DNA of 45,085 nt, taken from an uncultured Bacteroidales bacterium. Lineage in GTDB: Bacteria; Bacteroidota; Bacteroidia; Bacteroidales; UBA932. A model generated the notes under the pieces. The model was not told the DNA's origin, made no database searches, and was given only the letters and a program-made list of their open reading frames with translations. The stretch's first letter is position 1. The number at the start of each line of letters is the position of its first letter. Made by a program: the position numbers and the translations under genes. Below are positions 31,137-36,443 of the stretch, one piece after another. The stretch lies in assembly GCA_900318955.1 (NCBI GenBank), contig ONMJ01000029.1:1-45085 (forward strand), given 5' to 3'.

Positions 31137-32288
31137 ATGATAGACAGGATACTGCTATTTCCCTATACTCTCACTCTCGCAATCAGAAACGCCCTCTATG
31201 ACAAGGGCATCCTAAAATCACAGAAAGCAGACGTACCGACCGTCTGTGTCGGCAACATCACTGTCGGAGGCACCGGTAAAACTCCTCATACAGAGATGAT
31301 TCTAAGAACTCTCCTAAGGAGTGACCGATGGGCATACAGCAATATTGCCGTTCTTTCAAGGGGATACAAGCGTAAGTCCAAAGGATTCCAGAAAGTTTCA
31401 AGGGACGGGACAGCGGCGACATTCGGGGATGAGCCCCTCCAAATAGCAAAAAAGTTCCCTTCCGTGACAGTGGCAGTGGACAAGGACAGAGTCGAGGGGT
31501 GCCATTTCCTTTGCAATCCCGAAGATCTTCAGACGTCGAAAAAGGCCCGTAAATGCGCCGATAAGGATGTCCCGAAAAGCGACATTATTGTCCTCGATGA
31601 TGCCTTTCAGTATCGGAAACTCAAAGCCGACGTCAATGTCATCCTGGTCGACTATAACCGCCCTATCCATAAAGACAAGCTACTTCCGTTTGGCCAGCTG
31701 AGGGATCTTCCGAAACGTATCCGTCAGGCAGACATAGTGATTGTCACAAAGTGCCCTCCGTATCTCGACGAATGGGAAAAGGGCAAATGGGCTAAATACC
31801 TTGGTTTCAGCAGCTATAGCACCTCCACATGCAAAGGGAAGGACGACAAGGGCCGCGAGAGAACTCTCCTTTTCTCCCATATCGGCTACCGTCCGATGAA
31901 ACCGGTCTACGAAGAAGCCGACCAGAGGTTCATTTATGCAAAAAGGCTGGTTCTCTTCTCCGGCATCGCCAAAGACGGACCGCTTATCAACTACCTCTCG
32001 GATAAATACAAGCTGGTAAAAAGGATGAAATTCCCGGATCACCACAAGTATTCTTACGGCGACCTCAAGAACATAATGAGAGCTGTCGGGGCAAATCCGA
32101 CCGCAGTAGTAGCAACTACCGAGAAGGATGCACAGAGAATTGTAGACACGAAAAAAGTACCCGGAAGCCTCAAGGAAAGGTTGTTCCAGGTACCTATTGA
32201 AGTTAGTTTTCTTTCTCCCGAGGAAACCGCTATATTCGAGGAAACTCTTCTCGAACTAATCCGGAAATCCTCCAGAGCAGACAACTAG
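31137..32288 (+). CDS. lpxK: Tetraacyldisaccharide 4'-kinase
   Basis: A 383-residue LpxK that phosphorylates the lipid A disaccharide at the 4' position, on the inner face of the cytoplasmic membrane. Its N-terminal helix (MIDRILLFPYTLTLAIRNALYD) anchors it. VCVGNITVGGTGKTPHTE is the Walker A region with the conserved GNxxVGGTGKTP. LSRGYKRKS, GDEPLQIAKKFP and IIVLDDAFQYRKL (LDDAFQ is the Walker-B-like segment) are typical LpxK motifs. The ATG at 31137 fits this start; an in-frame ATG at 31113 adds an unlikely tail. TAAATTTG at 31092-31099 may be the -7 box. Its stop codon shares bases with the stop of the convergent aroF/CM gene through a CTAG. Confidence 0.93.
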   Translation: MIDRILLFPYTLTLAIRNALYDKGILKSQKADVPTVCVGNITVGGTGKTPHTEMILRTLLRSDRWAYSNIAVLSRGYKRKSKGFQKVSRDGTAATFGDEPLQIAKKFPSVTVAVDKDRVEGCHFLCNPEDLQTSKKARKCADKDVPKSDIIVLDDAFQYRKLKADVNVILVDYNRPIHKDKLLPFGQLRDLPKRIRQADIVIVTKCPPYLDEWEKGKWAKYLGFSSYSTSTCKGKDDKGRERTLLFSHIGYRPMKPVYEEADQRFIYAKRLVLFSGIAKDGPLINYLSDKYKLVKRMKFPDHHKYSYGDLKNIMRAVGANPTAVVATTEKDAQRIVDTKKVPGSLKERLFQVPIEVSFLSPEETAIFEETLLELIRKSSRADN

Positions 32289-33373
32289 CTCTCCAGAATC
32301 TCGTTCTGAGCACGAACGGATTCTTCGTGGATGGCATTGAACACCGTCTCGATAAACTCTTCTGAAAGACCGTATGCGCGGCCTTTCTTCTTCATGTCCT
32401 CTAGGACAGAATCCCATCTGGAGGTCTGTAGGATAGCGATATTGTGCTCCTTCTTGTACTGGCCGATCTTACGGCTGACACCCATTCTGGTGTTAAGAGC
32501 GTAGAGAAGGTTCTCGTCGATAATGTCGATTTGAGCGCGGAGCTGGACAATTCCATCCCGATACTCGCGGCTGTCGGTATCTTTTTCGCGAACGACAATC
32601 GACTCAAGCAACTCCTTAAGGGCAGGAGGAGTGAGCTGCTGGTGCGCATCGCTCAAAGCGGCGGAAGGATTGCAGTGAGATTCTATCATGAGCCCGTCAA
32701 GACCGAGGTCCATAGCCCTCTGGGACAGCTCCAACAGATAGTCTCTGCTGCCACCCATATGGCTCGGATCAGCAAAGAAAGGAAGGTCCGGATAGCGGGT
32801 GCGAAGCTCGATTGCTATCTTCCACTGGGGGTCATTTCGATATGCAATCTTCTGCGAGGTAGAGAAGCCGCGATGGATGACACCGAGCTTACGGACCCCC
32901 TCGCGATTGAGTCTCTCGAGCGCACCGATCCAAAGGTCGAGATCGGGATTGACAGGGTTCTTCACTAGCACGGGAATATCCGTATCCCTCAAGGCCTCAG
33001 CTATTTCCTGGACAAGAAAAGGATTCGCCGTTGTGCGCGCCCCGAGCCAGACCATGTCGACTCCATACTTTATACACTCGAAGACATGCTTCTCGGAGGC
33101 CACCTCGGTAGCGACCTTCATCCCATATTCTTTCTTCACCTTCTGGAGCCATTTGAGGCCGGGCGTACCGATCCCTTCGAAACTGCCCGGATGGGTACGG
33201 GGTTTCCATATTCCCGCCCTGAAAACATGTATTCCAAACTCATTCAGGCCCTTTGCCGTCTCCATTACCTGCTCCTCGGTCTCCGCGCTGCATGGGCCCG
33301 CGATTACCATTGGCCTCGGGAGAGTGAAGAATCCCCACTCGCCTACCGGAACTAAATCCAACGTTTTTGCCAT
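32285..33373 (-). CDS. DAHP synthase / chorismate mutase bifunctional enzyme
   Basis: A 362-residue fusion. Residues about 1-260 form a type I-beta DAHP synthase (GPCSAETEEQ, FRAGIWKPRTHPGSFEGIG, HRGFSTSQK, DPSHMGG and IESHCNPSAALSD) joining phosphoenolpyruvate and erythrose 4-phosphate. Residues about 270-362 form a chorismate mutase of the AroQ helical type (LRAQIDIIDENLLYALNTRM, VSRKIGQYKKEHNI). The fusion links the first step of the shikimate pathway to the branch to Phe/Tyr and could let the mutase domain serve as regulator. It is the last gene of the aromatic operon, 2 bases after tyrA. It is convergent with lpxK. Confidence 0.95.
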   Translation of the reverse strand: MAKTLDLVPVGEWGFFTLPRPMVIAGPCSAETEEQVMETAKGLNEFGIHVFRAGIWKPRTHPGSFEGIGTPGLKWLQKVKKEYGMKVATEVASEKHVFECIKYGVDMVWLGARTTANPFLVQEIAEALRDTDIPVLVKNPVNPDLDLWIGALERLNREGVRKLGVIHRGFSTSQKIAYRNDPQWKIAIELRTRYPDLPFFADPSHMGGSRDYLLELSQRAMDLGLDGLMIESHCNPSAALSDAHQQLTPPALKELLESIVVREKDTDSREYRDGIVQLRAQIDIIDENLLYALNTRMGVSRKIGQYKKEHNIAILQTSRWDSVLEDMKKKGRAYGLSEEFIETVFNAIHEESVRAQNEILES

Positions 33374-33375
33374 AA

Positions 33376-34230
33376 CTATCTGATTATTTTCTTTATTCTG
33401 TTTGCATCCTCAATGAGAGACCTGATTCCTTCTTCATCAAAATCCGCGATAGCATTACGGAACTGGGTCATCTTCTCCAAATATGTATCTATAACCTGAA
33501 GTACATTGTCCCTATTCTGGGTCAGGATGGGAACCCACATGTCGGCATTCGACTTCGCCAGTCGCACCGTAGAGGAAAAACCTCCCGACGCAAGGTCGAA
33601 AATATGCTTTTCATCCTTCTCCTTATCAAGTACCGTAAGGGCCAGGGCGAAGGAAGTAACATGCGAAATATGAGAGACATAGGCAGTATGAAGGTCATGA
33701 CTCGAGGCATTCATATAGATTGGTCTCATATTGAGGACATCATACATTTCCTCTATTGTCTTCAGAGCCTTAGGAGACGACTCCTCCGGGTTTGCGAAAA
33801 TACACGCCCTGCCATCGAAAAGATTCGGCATCGCCGCCCATGGACCCGAATACTCGGTTCCCGCCATAGGATGGGTCGAAACAAACTGTCCGCGGCAAGG
33901 ATGGTAATGAGTTGCAAGAGCGATCTGCTCTTTGGTCGAACAAGTATCGATGACTATCTTTTCTTTGGCGCCAGCCGTCTGGAAGCGGTCGAGGATATCT
34001 GAAACCATCTTCACAGCCGCCCCTACGGGAACCGCAACCACCACAATATCAGCTTCTTCCACACATGTCTCATAGCTTACCACCTCGTCTACAAGGCCAA
34101 TCTTCCCGGCTGCTGAAGCATTGATGGAGTTGGACTCGACTCCTATGATCCTGTCTGCAAACCCGCGCCTTTTGAGATCAATCGCCATCGAGCCTCCGAT
34201 AAGGCCAAGGCCTATTATTCCTACTGTCAT
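33376..34230 (-). CDS. tyrA: Prephenate dehydrogenase
   Basis: A 284-residue dehydrogenase converting prephenate to 4-hydroxyphenylpyruvate in tyrosine synthesis. VGIIGLGLIGGSMAIDLKRR is the NAD(P)-binding motif, and STKEQI and THPMAGTEYSGP carry the conserved His used in prephenate decarboxylation. HDLHTAYVSHISHVTSFAL is the next family motif. No ACT domain is present, so feedback control by Tyr would be absent or weak. It is packed between the aminotransferase (1 base) and the DAHP synthase gene. Confidence 0.95.
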   Translation of the reverse strand: MTVGIIGLGLIGGSMAIDLKRRGFADRIIGVESNSINASAAGKIGLVDEVVSYETCVEEADIVVVAVPVGAAVKMVSDILDRFQTAGAKEKIVIDTCSTKEQIALATHYHPCRGQFVSTHPMAGTEYSGPWAAMPNLFDGRACIFANPEESSPKALKTIEEMYDVLNMRPIYMNASSHDLHTAYVSHISHVTSFALALTVLDKEKDEKHIFDLASGGFSSTVRLAKSNADMWVPILTQNRDNVLQVIDTYLEKMTQFRNAIADFDEEGIRSLIEDANRIKKIIR

Positions 34231-34231
34231 A

Positions 34232-35464
34232 TTACGCTAATACCTGATTTTCAATTTGTTCAAGATGACTCTTTATGAGCTCCGCCGCTTTTTCGAGTTT
34301 TGGAACGGGAGCGCAAAGGGAGGCGCGGATATAGTTCTCTCCATTATGGCCGAAGATATATCCGGGAGTGATGAATACGCCCGCCTCATGGAGAATAGCT
34401 TCGGAGAGCCTTTCCCCGGCTGTCATCGCCGTACTGCTATTCGACGAGGCGATGATCTTCTCAGGGACCTTTCCCCATACAAAGAGGCCTGCACTGGCCT
34501 TGTCATAGCGGACTCCGAGGACATCGAAGATATGCCCTGCGGCCTCGCGGCGCTTCCTATACTCCGCATTCAGCTCGGAGAACCACTCTTCCCCGCATCC
34601 AAGAGCCTCGACAGCAGCAAGTTGGAGAGGGCGGAAGATGCCGCTGTCCATCTGGCTTTTGACCTTCAGCACCTCCGAGACCATCGCCGCCTCGCCGGCG
34701 AGCATCCCTAGTCTCCATCCTGACATGTTGTGGGCCTTGCTAAGAGAGTTTAGCTCCAGGCAGCAGTCCTTCGCCCCTTCTACTTCGAGTATCGAAAGAG
34801 GGTCGTCATTGAGGATGAAACTATATGGATTATCATTGACAATCAATATCTTATGCCGTCGGCCAAAGTCAACCAGACGCTTGTAAAGCTCCCTTGTAGC
34901 CCTCCCTCCCGTAGGCATTCCGGGATAGTTGGTCCACATTAGTTTCACCCCCTCAAGATCCATTCTCTCAAGAGCGTCGAAGTCCGGTTGCCACCCGTTC
35001 TCCTCCAAAAGGTCGTAAGGGACAATTTCAGCTTCAACTATCCTTGCCGATGAAGAGTATGTCGGATAGCCGGGGTCAGGGACAAGAACCTTGTCGCCTG
35101 GATTGAGGAATGCGAGGGAAATGAGCAAAATACCCTCTTTGGAACCTGTCAGAGGCTGGATTTCCTTCGAAGGGTCGAGCTCAACCCTGTAATATCTTTT
35201 GTACCACGATGCAAAAGCCTCGCGAAGTTCCGGAATGCCCATATAGCTCTGATAGGCATGCACTCCCGGCTTGACCGCCTCCGACACAAGCTTATCTATC
35301 GCCACCTTGGGCGGCATTCCATCCGGCGCCCCTATTCCAAGATTGATTATCGGGTCGAGGCCGGCCTCTTTCCGAAGCACATTCATAGAAGCAATCTCCC
35401 TGTTTTTGCGGGAGAAGTAGTACTCTTTGACCGATTCGGTCCTCTTTGCAGGTTGAATAATCAT
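34232..35464 (-). CDS. PLP-dependent aminotransferase (class I/II, aromatic pathway)
   Basis: A 410-residue fold-type-I aminotransferase. GIGAPDGMPP and YQSYMGIPELREAFASWY match the class, LTGSKEGILLISLAFLNPGD is the cofactor phosphate region, NYPGMPTGG holds the conserved Asn, and SLSKAHNMSGWRLG holds the PLP Lys. In the operon between pheA and tyrA it most likely converts phenylpyruvate and 4-hydroxyphenylpyruvate, or the prephenate/arogenate step, to the amino acids. LL-diaminopimelate or aspartate aminotransferases have similar motifs, so the specific acceptor is inferred from position. It overlaps pheA by 4 bases. Confidence 0.88.
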   Translation of the reverse strand: MIIQPAKRTESVKEYYFSRKNREIASMNVLRKEAGLDPIINLGIGAPDGMPPKVAIDKLVSEAVKPGVHAYQSYMGIPELREAFASWYKRYYRVELDPSKEIQPLTGSKEGILLISLAFLNPGDKVLVPDPGYPTYSSSARIVEAEIVPYDLLEENGWQPDFDALERMDLEGVKLMWTNYPGMPTGGRATRELYKRLVDFGRRHKILIVNDNPYSFILNDDPLSILEVEGAKDCCLELNSLSKAHNMSGWRLGMLAGEAAMVSEVLKVKSQMDSGIFRPLQLAAVEALGCGEEWFSELNAEYRKRREAAGHIFDVLGVRYDKASAGLFVWGKVPEKIIASSNSSTAMTAGERLSEAILHEAGVFITPGYIFGHNGENYIRASLCAPVPKLEKAAELIKSHLEQIENQVLA

Positions 35465-36291
35465 ATCGCAGCTTTATATTCTCCTAAAATATTAAGGTCT
35501 TCTATTAACGGGCGGACAGCAGAAAGAGCCTGACAATAGCGGTTGTAGTCGTCAAACTTTATGTCCACATAGAAAAAGTATTGCCACTCGCGGCCGGGAA
35601 TCGGGAGCGACTGGATTCGGGTAAGGTTCATGTCATAGAACGAAAGGATAGTCAGGATATGCGCCAGCGACCCGGGTTTATGAGGAAGGGTGAAGCAAAT
35701 GGAGGCTTTATCTATGGCCGACTCCGGAAGCGTCACGGCTTCATCGAAAATGAGAAAGCGCGTGAAATTCTGCTTATATGTCTCAATGCTCTCCCTGAGA
35801 ATCTCAAGAGAATAAAGTTCGGAGGCAAGACTGGAGGCCACCGCCCCAACCCCCAAGAGCCGATTTCCGGCAATCTCCGCGGCACTTTTTGCCGTATCCT
35901 CGGACTCGACCAGAGTTATCCACGGGCACTCCCCCTGAAAGAAATCACGCGTCTGATTGATAGCCATATAATGGGTCCGGACTTCCTTAATATCCTCTAT
36001 CGACTGACCGGGAAGGGCCATAAGGTTCTGCTTAATTCGAAGATATACCTCTCCCTTTATCTTGCGGTCATACCGGCGCAAAAGCTCAAAATTATGAATA
36101 AGCCCTCCGGAAACGGTGTTTTCGATTGCCATGACGGCAGCATCGGCAGCCTCGTTTTCCAAAGCCCGATAGAGGCCTTCGAAGGTATCGCACTCGAGAA
36201 TATCCGGGACTAGACCGGATTGGGCGTAAAAAGTCCGCGCCGCCTCCTCATGGAAGCACCCCTTGTATCCCTGTATAGCTACTTTCTTCAT
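35461..36291 (-). CDS. pheA: Prephenate dehydratase with ACT domain
   Basis: A 276-residue enzyme turning prephenate into phenylpyruvate. The catalytic domain spans residues about 1-180 with VAIQGYKGCFHEEAARTFY, MAIENTVSGGLIHNFELL and a following TRDFFQGE / TRFLIFDE region. The ACT domain is at about 193-270, with KPGSLAHILTILSFYDMNLT and ESLP-type QSLPIPGREWQYFFYVD, the usual Phe-binding feedback site. No mutase domain is fused here because that lies in the DAHP synthase gene. Its ATG is only a few bases after the attenuator's T-tract, so transcription attenuation should control it directly. It overlaps the aminotransferase gene by ATGA. Confidence 0.95.
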   Translation of the reverse strand: MKKVAIQGYKGCFHEEAARTFYAQSGLVPDILECDTFEGLYRALENEAADAAVMAIENTVSGGLIHNFELLRRYDRKIKGEVYLRIKQNLMALPGQSIEDIKEVRTHYMAINQTRDFFQGECPWITLVESEDTAKSAAEIAGNRLLGVGAVASSLASELYSLEILRESIETYKQNFTRFLIFDEAVTLPESAIDKASICFTLPHKPGSLAHILTILSFYDMNLTRIQSLPIPGREWQYFFYVDIKFDDYNRYCQALSAVRPLIEDLNILGEYKAAI

Positions 36292-36294
36292 AAT

Positions 36295-36324
36295 AAAACA
36301 AAAGCCGCCCGCATCCCGGACAGC
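36295..36324 (-). terminator. Attenuator terminator of the aromatic operon
   Basis: Read on the minus strand, GCTGTCCG pairs with CGGGCGGC (two G-U pairs) around a GGATG loop, then TTTTGTTTT follows. It ends 3 bases before the pheA ATG. The 5' arm overlaps the antiterminator arm GTCCGGG, so the two structures exclude each other. Confidence 0.8.
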
Positions 36325-36360
36325 CTCATAAAAATACTCTATGACAGTACGACGTCCGGG
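36315..36360 (-). promoter_or_regulatory. Antiterminator hairpin (2:3) of the pheA attenuator
   Basis: On the minus strand CCCGGAC (36354-36360) pairs with GTCCGGG (36315-36321), with TCATA/TATGA strengthening the stem. The 3' arm takes up the 5' arm of the terminator hairpin. Region 2 directly adjoins the leader-peptide hairpin, as in the classic enteric attenuators. Confidence 0.7.
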
Positions 36361-36383
36361 CTATTATCTTGTAGGATAATAGC
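36360..36383 (-). promoter_or_regulatory. Leader-peptide hairpin (1:2) of the pheA attenuator
   Basis: GCTATTATC (36375-36383) and GATAATAGC (36360-36368) pair perfectly over 9 bases on the minus strand. The 5' arm contains the paired Tyr codons TAT TAT and the 3' arm contains the leader stop codon TAA. A ribosome stalled at Tyr codons would cover arm 1 and free arm 2; one at the stop would cover arm 2. Confidence 0.75.
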
Positions 36384-36420
36384 TATCATAAGCGGATGCG
36401 TAAAATCGGTTGTTCATCAT
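36364..36420 (-). CDS. Phe/Tyr-rich leader peptide of pheA attenuator
   Basis: An 18-residue ORF, MMNNRFYASAYDSYYPTR, that contains one Phe and four Tyr, two of them adjacent (the first Met could also be the second ATG). Such enrichment in a tiny peptide placed between a promoter-like -7 box and three mutually exclusive hairpins is typical of amino-acid attenuation leaders (compare pheL). Its last codons and stop lie in the 1:2 hairpin. Its role should be sensing charged tRNA-Tyr and perhaps tRNA-Phe, controlling the four-gene operon. It is too short for ordinary gene finders. Confidence 0.8.
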   Translation of the reverse strand: MMNNRFYASAYDSYYPTR

Positions 36421-36435
36421 AAACTATTCTAATGA

Positions 36436-36443
36436 CAAATATA
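36436..36443 (-). promoter_or_regulatory. -7 promoter box upstream of the pheA leader
   Basis: The minus strand reads TATATTTG, an exact TAnnTTTG match, 16 bases before the leader peptide ATG. No clear TTTG is seen at -33. Confidence 0.45.

Follow-up and report, generated by a model that had tools for sequence, protein, structure and literature searches.

Does the DNA directly upstream of pheA in an uncultured Bacteroidales bacterium encode a ribosome-mediated transcription attenuator of the kind known from enteric bacteria? Leader-peptide attenuation is a classical mode of regulation. Bacteroidota, which dominate the human gut, have an unusual sigma factor and mostly start translation without Shine-Dalgarno pairing. 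The initial annotation of the window (the whole 45,085-nucleotide stretch of DNA analysed here) had described a complete amino-acid attenuator on the minus strand upstream of a Phe/Tyr operon. We analyzed the parts of this element in the window and at the pheA loci of relatives, using sequence comparison and RNA folding.

Leader and alternative helices upstream of pheA

The 18-residue leader ORF with one Phe and four Tyr codons, the perfect 9-bp hairpin containing its Tyr-Tyr codons and stop codon, the antiterminator, and the terminator, with its T tract stopping 3 bases short of the pheA ATG, were all found in the sequence as the initial annotation had described them (Table 1). The 9-bp stem (GCTATTATC/GATAATAGC) had a folding energy of -10.2 kcal/mol, which was equalled by 1 of 200 shuffled sequences, and the terminator (GAGGCTGTCCG/CGGGCGGCTTT) had one of -17.1 kcal/mol, equalled by none of 200. 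In a simple scan, this terminator was the sole terminator-like site between positions 36000 and 36930 (shuffles expect 0.9), and the leader RNA folded with a z-score of -2.8 (2/200 shuffles equally good). The leader itself, with five Phe/Tyr codons in ten, had the lowest Phe/Tyr content among the accepted leaders, and a score of at least 5 was reached by 73 of 2350 shuffles. Because the window leader is weak on its own, the case rests on the whole layout recurring upstream of pheA in relatives.

Table 1. Features of the predicted attenuator and of the operon that follows it in the window.
Feature	Position	Strand	Basis or remarks
Promoter -7 box TATATTTG	36436..36443	-	15 nt 5' of the first leader ATG; Bacteroidota consensus TAnnTTTG
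Leader ORF MMNNRFYASAYDSYYPTR, stop included	36364..36420	-	18 codons, ATG ATG AAC ... AGA TAA; 4 Tyr and 1 Phe
Long 1:2 helix, 5' arm (leader segment UACGC-A-UCCG)	36393..36402	-	fold of the transcript before region 3; equivalent genus helices covary (n = 46)
9-bp hairpin, 5' arm GCTATTATC	36375..36383	-	Tyr-Tyr codons inside; folding and covariation
9-bp hairpin, 3' arm GATAATAGC	36360..36368	-	stop codon inside; folding and covariation
Region 2, antiterminator 5' arm CCCGGAC	36354..36360	-	begins 6 nt past the first stop-codon base
Long 1:2 helix, 3' arm (CGGA of region 2 and bases on to GUCGUA)	36348..36358	-	fold and covariation
Region 3, antiterminator 3' arm GTCCGGG	36315..36321	-	overlaps the terminator 5' arm
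Intrinsic terminator GAGGCTGTCCG-GGATG-CGGGCGGCTTT (regions 3:4)	36301..36327	-	folding, terminator scan, covariation
T tract TTTTGTTTT	36295..36303	-	sequence; ends 3 bases 5' of the pheA ATG
pheA, monofunctional prephenate dehydratase	35461..36291	-	NCBIfam PRK11898, E 9.9e-53, below curated cut-off
PLP aminotransferase, operon gene 2	34232..35464	-	matches below curated cut-offs
tyrA, prephenate dehydrogenase	33376..34230	-	NCBIfam PRK08507, above its cut-off
DAHP synthase with C-terminal chorismate mutase domain	32285..33373	-	matches below curated cut-offs

Distribution of the leader among relatives

PheA loci were drawn from four sources. The first comprised the window's own genome together with those of 60 relatives, and 43 of these 61 genomes had a match. 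The second was the best 80 of 591 named loci. In the phylum, 340 of 394 genomes had a match, and 30 loci were taken from them; in the window's genus, 154 of 200 genomes did. The 79 extra upstream stretches consisted of 66 full-length PheA matches in the genus without a locus (to about E 1e-88) and 13 picks from the phylum sample; partial PheA matches, such as that of G576, were excluded from these. Of the 240 pheA loci assembled, four were excluded (L043 as a duplicate; L049, L066 and L198 as too short), leaving 236. The named and phylum samples are biased to close sequences, since their loci were ranked by PheA similarity.

The upstream regions were searched for ORFs of 10–45 codons starting with ATG and holding at least six Phe/Tyr codons within a 10-codon stretch. 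Such ORFs were found in 153 of 236 pheA upstream regions. The reverse complements gave 1 in 236, and dinucleotide shuffles gave 9 in 2350. The leader thus recurs in relatives, where the initial annotation had suggested looking for conserved Phe/Tyr codons. The window's own score, within reach of some shuffles, would by itself permit a chance ORF before an ordinary terminator; this reading is contradicted by the recurrence of the frame and its codons, and by that of the helices described below, and we give it next to no probability.

Accepted leaders were present at 48 of 110 loci of the window's genus (47 scoring at least 6, and the window scoring 5), at all 7 unnamed loci of the order, at 68 of 77 named loci (Bacteroides, Phocaeicola, Parabacteroides, Prevotella, Muribaculaceae and Dysgonomonas among them, with Phocaeicola vulgatus ATCC 8482 as L039), at all 29 of the best phylum-sample loci, and at 2 of the 13 further picks. 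The leader of L014 was first counted and then dropped as a false positive. Counting ATG starts alone overlooks leaders that begin with GTG, which were seen by eye at L054 and L063, and the leader of L182 was missed by the 300-nt limit. L182 was found at 70.3 bits by R1, a genus model built on alignment A3 of 46 genus sequences. R1 also matched L198 and, weakly, L158, and through R1 the genus leader count gains L182 and, weakly, L158. As judged from these sequences, the predicted attenuator is widely conserved in the sampled Bacteroidia and often absent in the window's genus, a distribution that is new here.

No leader was counted at 62 of the 110 genus loci (L004, L010, L013, L015, L017, L021 and L023 are examples). 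At 27 of these 62 loci, the gene just 5' had an frr-like end (..TV), often few bases before pheA. The same ending was seen at 17 of the 48 genus loci with a leader, so frr alone does not account for leader loss. At L005, a sense codon stands where most genus leaders stop, and the ORF continues through region 2.

The leaders were also accompanied by a promoter element. An exact TAnnTTTG, the Bacteroidota promoter -7 consensus as given in PMC7366714, occurred within 80 nt of the leader ATG at 128 of 147 loci, compared with 5.7% of base-shuffled controls. The -7 box and the ATG were separated by a median of 10 nt at the 46 genus loci and of 27 nt at 82 others. Given the 10-nt median, many genus leaders would have to begin very near the 5' end.

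Structure and covariation of the helices

For 150 of the 154 accepted leaders, our parser returned both an antiterminator and a terminator, a few of them misparsed; no terminator was found at L042, L050, L057 and L097. Both helices were at or below -12 kcal/mol for 127 of the 154 leaders, compared with 0 of 770 sequences in which the post-leader part was shuffled, and the terminator alone reached this energy for 137 of 154, compared with 4 of 770. The distance from the last Phe/Tyr codon to the antiterminator arm was 12–20 nt in 128 of the 150 parsed loci. The leader stop codon lay 1–10 nt before the arm in 63 loci, at or after the start of the arm in 87, and more than 10 nt before it in none, with the leader ORFs of Bacteroides and Prevotella running into or through the arm. 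In the window and in relatives, antiterminator and terminator share a strand (region 3), and regions 2, 3 and 4 co-vary between families, as in GAGCGGGA/TCCCGCTC/GCGGGAT and GGCAGGA/TCCTGCC/GGCAGGACT.

Covariation was measured in A3, of whose 46 genus sequences 45 were distinct and whose kinship can inflate the counts. Alignment cells changed on both sides numbered 37 in the 9-bp stem (shuffled mean 14.6; 93.2% of cells paired), 11 in the antiterminator (4.1), 4 in the terminator (1.3), and 7 and 46 in the first and second sets of long 1:2 pairs between leader and region 2 (1.5 and 15.8). None of 500 shuffles reached the counts of the 9-bp stem, the antiterminator or either long 1:2 set, and 4 of 500 reached that of the terminator. 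When partners were slid by 1–3 columns, the covariation score and the paired share fell for every helix, although slid antiterminators still reached up to 10 both-sided cells. Counted as pairs, both-sided changes were unremarkable, being reached by 48 (9-bp stem), 218 (antiterminator) and 227 (second 1:2 set) of 500 shuffles. Pairs of the second long 1:2 set were formed in 68.4% of cells, and those of the outer helix in 59.4%. Covariation, which the initial annotation had named as a check, supported the 9-bp stem, the antiterminator, the terminator and the long 1:2 helices in the 46 genus sequences.

In the window, 9 nt separate the last hairpin from the pheA ATG, a spacing that would suit translational attenuation, in which this hairpin masks the pheA start site and transcription does not end. 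Across the 150 parsed loci, however, the gap between the hairpin and the start of the PheA match ranged from 9 to 148 nt (median 26) and was at least 30 nt at 62 loci. The 11-nt tail held at least six T at 149 of 150 loci, a figure that arises partly by construction because the parser itself demands four T in eight. We consider translational attenuation very unlikely and read the last hairpin as a putative transcription terminator.

A longer helix predicted to compete with the antiterminator

The initial annotation held that regions 1 to 4 are mutually exclusive as in the enteric model. This does not apply to the 9-bp stem, which coexists with the antiterminator. The two overlap at one base only, 36360, and both were contained in 1000 of 1000 sampled structures of the window's pre-terminator transcript, which rules out the 9-bp hairpin as what makes the scheme exclusive. 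The mean over 130 loci was 0.34 for both helices, 0.19 for the antiterminator only, 0.27 for the hairpin only, and 0.20 for neither.

The idea that there is no competing helix at all was rejected once a longer helix between leader and region 2 appeared. In many genus members, ACCGGA of region 2 and the motif 3' of it are the pairing partners of TTCGGT and adjacent bases in the leader, and B. fragilis (L046) has an analogous long hairpin. A GYYGTGTATCG-like motif is conserved in the genus at the 3' arm of the long 1:2 helix; the idea that it is a polymerase pause site was set aside, as the motif is explained by its pairing with leader codons. In a fold with no ribosome, region 2 paired with the leader at a mean of 0.59 and with region 3 at 0.27 in 46 genus loci, the corresponding means being 0.33 and 0.60 in 98 other loci. 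Of these two partners, the leader was the preferred one at 32 of 46 genus loci and at 35 of 98 others. In the window, region 2 paired with region 3 at 0.88, the remaining 0.12 being mainly the shared first base in the 9-bp stem; the long 1:2 helix was nearly absent at steady state but formed in a transcript that does not yet reach region 3. On folding and covariation, we predict that the antiterminator competes in relatives with this longer, covarying helix, which leader codons form with region 2 plus the adjoining motif. These pairing results indicate that the 1:2/2:3/3:4 scheme fits much of the family once its arms are redrawn, and that the window is an outlier in balance.

Effect of ribosome position on the fold

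A ribosome was represented by keeping its footprint unpaired, taken as reaching 15 nt to the 5' side and 12 nt to the 3' side of the first A-site base. The readout was how probable the antiterminator was in a transcript that did not yet contain the terminator. Relatives were averaged over the last three control codons, and the misparsed loci L020, L088, L117, L118, L189 and L235 (kept among the 150) were excluded.

For E. coli pheL, the antiterminator probability was 0.00 without a ribosome, 0.00 with a ribosome at the stop codon, and 0.96 with one at six of the seven Phe codons (0.62 at the last); for E. coli trpL, it was 0.18, 0.00 and 0.99 with no, finished and stalled ribosome, respectively. 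The window gave 0.00 at stop and 0.87–0.99 at the control codons, which are so placed, together with the stop codon, that a stalled ribosome frees region 2 and a finished one covers it. Without a ribosome the antiterminator was favoured in the window (0.88), unlike in pheL and trpL. Means for no, finished and stalled ribosome were 0.27, 0.02 and 0.61 in the genus (n = 46) and 0.60, 0.24 and 0.92 at other loci (n = 98). The outcome was thus weaker in relatives than in the window: the mean stalled state exceeded 0.5 in 72% of the 46 genus loci, and the stop state exceeded 0.5 in 24% of the 98 non-genus loci, where the antiterminator was retained at stop. Whichever ribosome state was imposed, thermodynamics favoured the terminator on the complete leader of almost all relatives, so that the model requires folding during transcription.

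The antiterminator also formed without a ribosome in 64% of the 98 non-genus loci, as it did in the window, which might point to a riboswitch, a T-box or a protein-binding antiterminator acting independently of leader translation. Yet neither the window leader nor 13 pheA loci of relatives matched a T-box or riboswitch family, or any other family of Rfam 15, at gathering score, and hits up to E 10 all lay far below it. The trait that recurs is instead a frame rich in the amino acids of the operon, with Trp, His and Leu codons before other operons. Such a translation-independent device is extremely unlikely in our estimation.

A ribosome-dependent attenuator might still be decaying in the window genome and mostly read through, and the weak window leader, the loss of the long 1:2 helix to the antiterminator, and the 62 genus loci without a counted leader all lean in this direction. 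The window's antiterminator and terminator are nevertheless intact, its stop and stalled states are well separated, and R1 gives it 87.6 bits, within the genus range (the window being 1 of the 46 training sequences). We regard decay as unlikely.

A model for the pheA operon

The pheA-aminotransferase-tyrA-DAHP synthase/chorismate mutase operon is very probably controlled by a ribosome-mediated transcription attenuator. The leader, the positions of its codons, the predicted alternative helices, and their recurrence and covariation can be read from the sequences. The enteric-type assignment of the initial annotation is supported: leader codons, antiterminator and terminator recur and covary, and masking in the window resembles that in pheL and trpL.

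RNA polymerase would start just past the -7 box and, judging from the spacing, a ribosome would begin the 18-codon leader near the 5' end. When charged tRNA-Tyr and tRNA-Phe are ample, the ribosome at the stop codon would cover region 2, region 3 would pair with region 4, and transcription would end before pheA. A shortage of Tyr (or Phe) would stall the ribosome on the control codons, 18–45 nt upstream of region 2; region 2 would then be free to pair with region 3, no terminator would form, and the operon would be read. Without a ribosome, the leader codons could pair with region 2 in the long 1:2 helix, which is conserved in relatives and would favour termination. In the window this helix would yield to the antiterminator once region 3 is made.

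Tyr and Phe codons

The Tyr share of the window leader was 0.80, and the median shares were 0.50 in the genus and 0.46 elsewhere. Both Phe and Tyr were present in all 155 counted leaders (including that of L014, later judged a false positive), and, of the 49 genus leaders, those of the window and of L145 had a Tyr share of at least 0.80, as did none of 106 others. Tyr bias as a family-wide trait was rejected on these medians. The initial annotation had taken the bias to suggest that charged tRNA-Tyr is the main signal; this is plausible for the window leader, whose codons nearest region 2 are Tyr, but is not general to the family.

Related leaders before other genes

R1 found one copy in the window genome and, at E 0.01, matched 123 of the 400 genus genomes searched. 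On pheA loci of other families, it matched 19 of 33 at E 0.01 and 29 of 33 at E 1. We inspected 18 odd or weak hits, nine of which precede pheA (L281, L284 and L290–L296). At L278 and L279, a leader stands before aminotransferase, tyrA and DAHP synthase genes without pheA, the latter two genes being named by their resemblance to those in the window. These two leaders were Tyr-dominated (4 Tyr and 1 Phe; 3 Tyr and 1 Phe). The L278 element lies at about 824–1000, and pheA is not adjacent to it. In G534, pheA is on another contig, without a leader, and no PheA match was found in G020 (80% complete).

Other hits, weak ones in members of the genus, carried other codons. Trp-Trp leaders preceded a TrpB-like gene at L283, where the gene was tested, and at L280, where it was recognized by eye; four His codons preceded hisG at L288, and a Leu-rich leader preceded leuA at L287. 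At L285, a Phe/Tyr leader preceded a chorismate mutase domain whose reading frame has a PheA match as well (G645). The idea that a separate leader is the rule for chorismate mutase-PheA genes was rejected, since none was convincing by eye in 20 loci (L300 and L314 score 5, and L297 is too short); L285 is the one case seen. For L286 and L289, also hit by R1, no amino-acid gene was identified. In the masking test, L288, L278 and L279 separated the stalled and stop states, L283 did so only at the last Trp codon, and L280, L285 and L287 showed no separation with the arms chosen by the parser. The Trp, His and Leu leaders before trpB-like, hisG and leuA genes, and the Tyr-dominated leaders that two genomes carry without a pheA behind them, are new here.

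Genome G760 (L284, 1–200 and 560–800) has the promoter and leader start repeated. One copy precedes pheA, and the other precedes a lipoprotein-like ORF and, by eye, is without antiterminator and terminator.

HisG, the TrpE N-terminal domain and IlvD had no match in the window genome (98.9% complete), compared with matches in 13, 14 and 14 of 14 control genomes, respectively. The organism may therefore need several amino acids from outside, and the His, Trp or Ile/Val operons of this genome were dropped as comparisons for want of these matches. The genome retains the Phe/Tyr operon and its predicted attenuator despite missing the three proteins.

Comparison with known attenuators

With E. coli pheL-pheA, the element shares a Phe-rich leader upstream of pheA, the proposed 1:2/2:3/3:4 logic, and like outcomes of stalled and stop masking. 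It differs in that the leaders of the window and its relatives mix Phe and Tyr and the operon makes both, in its Bacteroidota promoter, and in the composition of the operon. R1 scored E. coli pheL (L246) at 30.9 bits (E 0.00026) and did not match trpL. The pheL score may be explained by shared Phe codons and the terminator, and could reflect either convergence or shared descent.

The Bacteroid-trp family (Rfam RF01692) is of the same phylum and kind, but has Trp codons. At L141, the leader MSKQLVNTFWWWCLQLKQVVRS was seen by eye between a TATCTTTG box and a terminator, and L142 and L143, among the four loci of this family, score weakly with R1. RF01692 was matched in 4 of 60 genomes of the order. 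It was searched for in the window genome without a match, and the window leader and 13 pheA loci of relatives lay below its gathering cut-off. The same leader and 13 loci had no match to the proteobacterial Phe leader family of Rfam 15.

The initial annotation called such attenuation rarely described in Bacteroidota, which is fair, although precedents exist. Bacteroid-trp is in Rfam and is listed in a table of PMC2864571. For Flavobacterium psychrophilum, PMC9723704 describes structured 5' elements of pheA and hisG, with conservation stated for Flavobacteriaceae, and leader-peptide clues before amino-acid operons, with no Rfam hit. By gene and class, the F. psychrophilum pheA element is comparable with ours. 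For B. thetaiotaomicron, PMC7366714 mentions short ORFs that resemble leader peptides. PMC2965389 contains neither bacteroid- nor pheA as a word, and no Bacteroidales pheA attenuator appeared in the titles or abstracts listed in searches of the freely accessible literature. This kind of attenuator is already known in the phylum, and the pheA element matches no Rfam family.

Implications

A widely conserved attenuator before pheA that is unlisted in Rfam suggests that coupling between leader translation and transcription works in Bacteroidota. Annotators would gain a leader gene, and a reporter of amino-acid starvation would become available for gut bacteria. The window's genus offers natural experiments in the form of losses, moved genes, and leaders with other codons.

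It is possible, though doubtful at present, that Bacteroidia share one attenuator chassis, consisting of a -7 box, a leader near the 5' end, a long 1:2 hairpin, an antiterminator and a terminator, in which the control codons are exchanged for each amino-acid gene and re-tuned when the operon changes. If this were true, Phe/Tyr codons would stand before pheA or chorismate mutase-prephenate dehydratase genes, Trp codons before trpB-like genes, His codons before hisG, and Leu codons before leuA, and the Tyr-dominated leader before aminotransferase-tyrA without pheA would be an example of such re-tuning.
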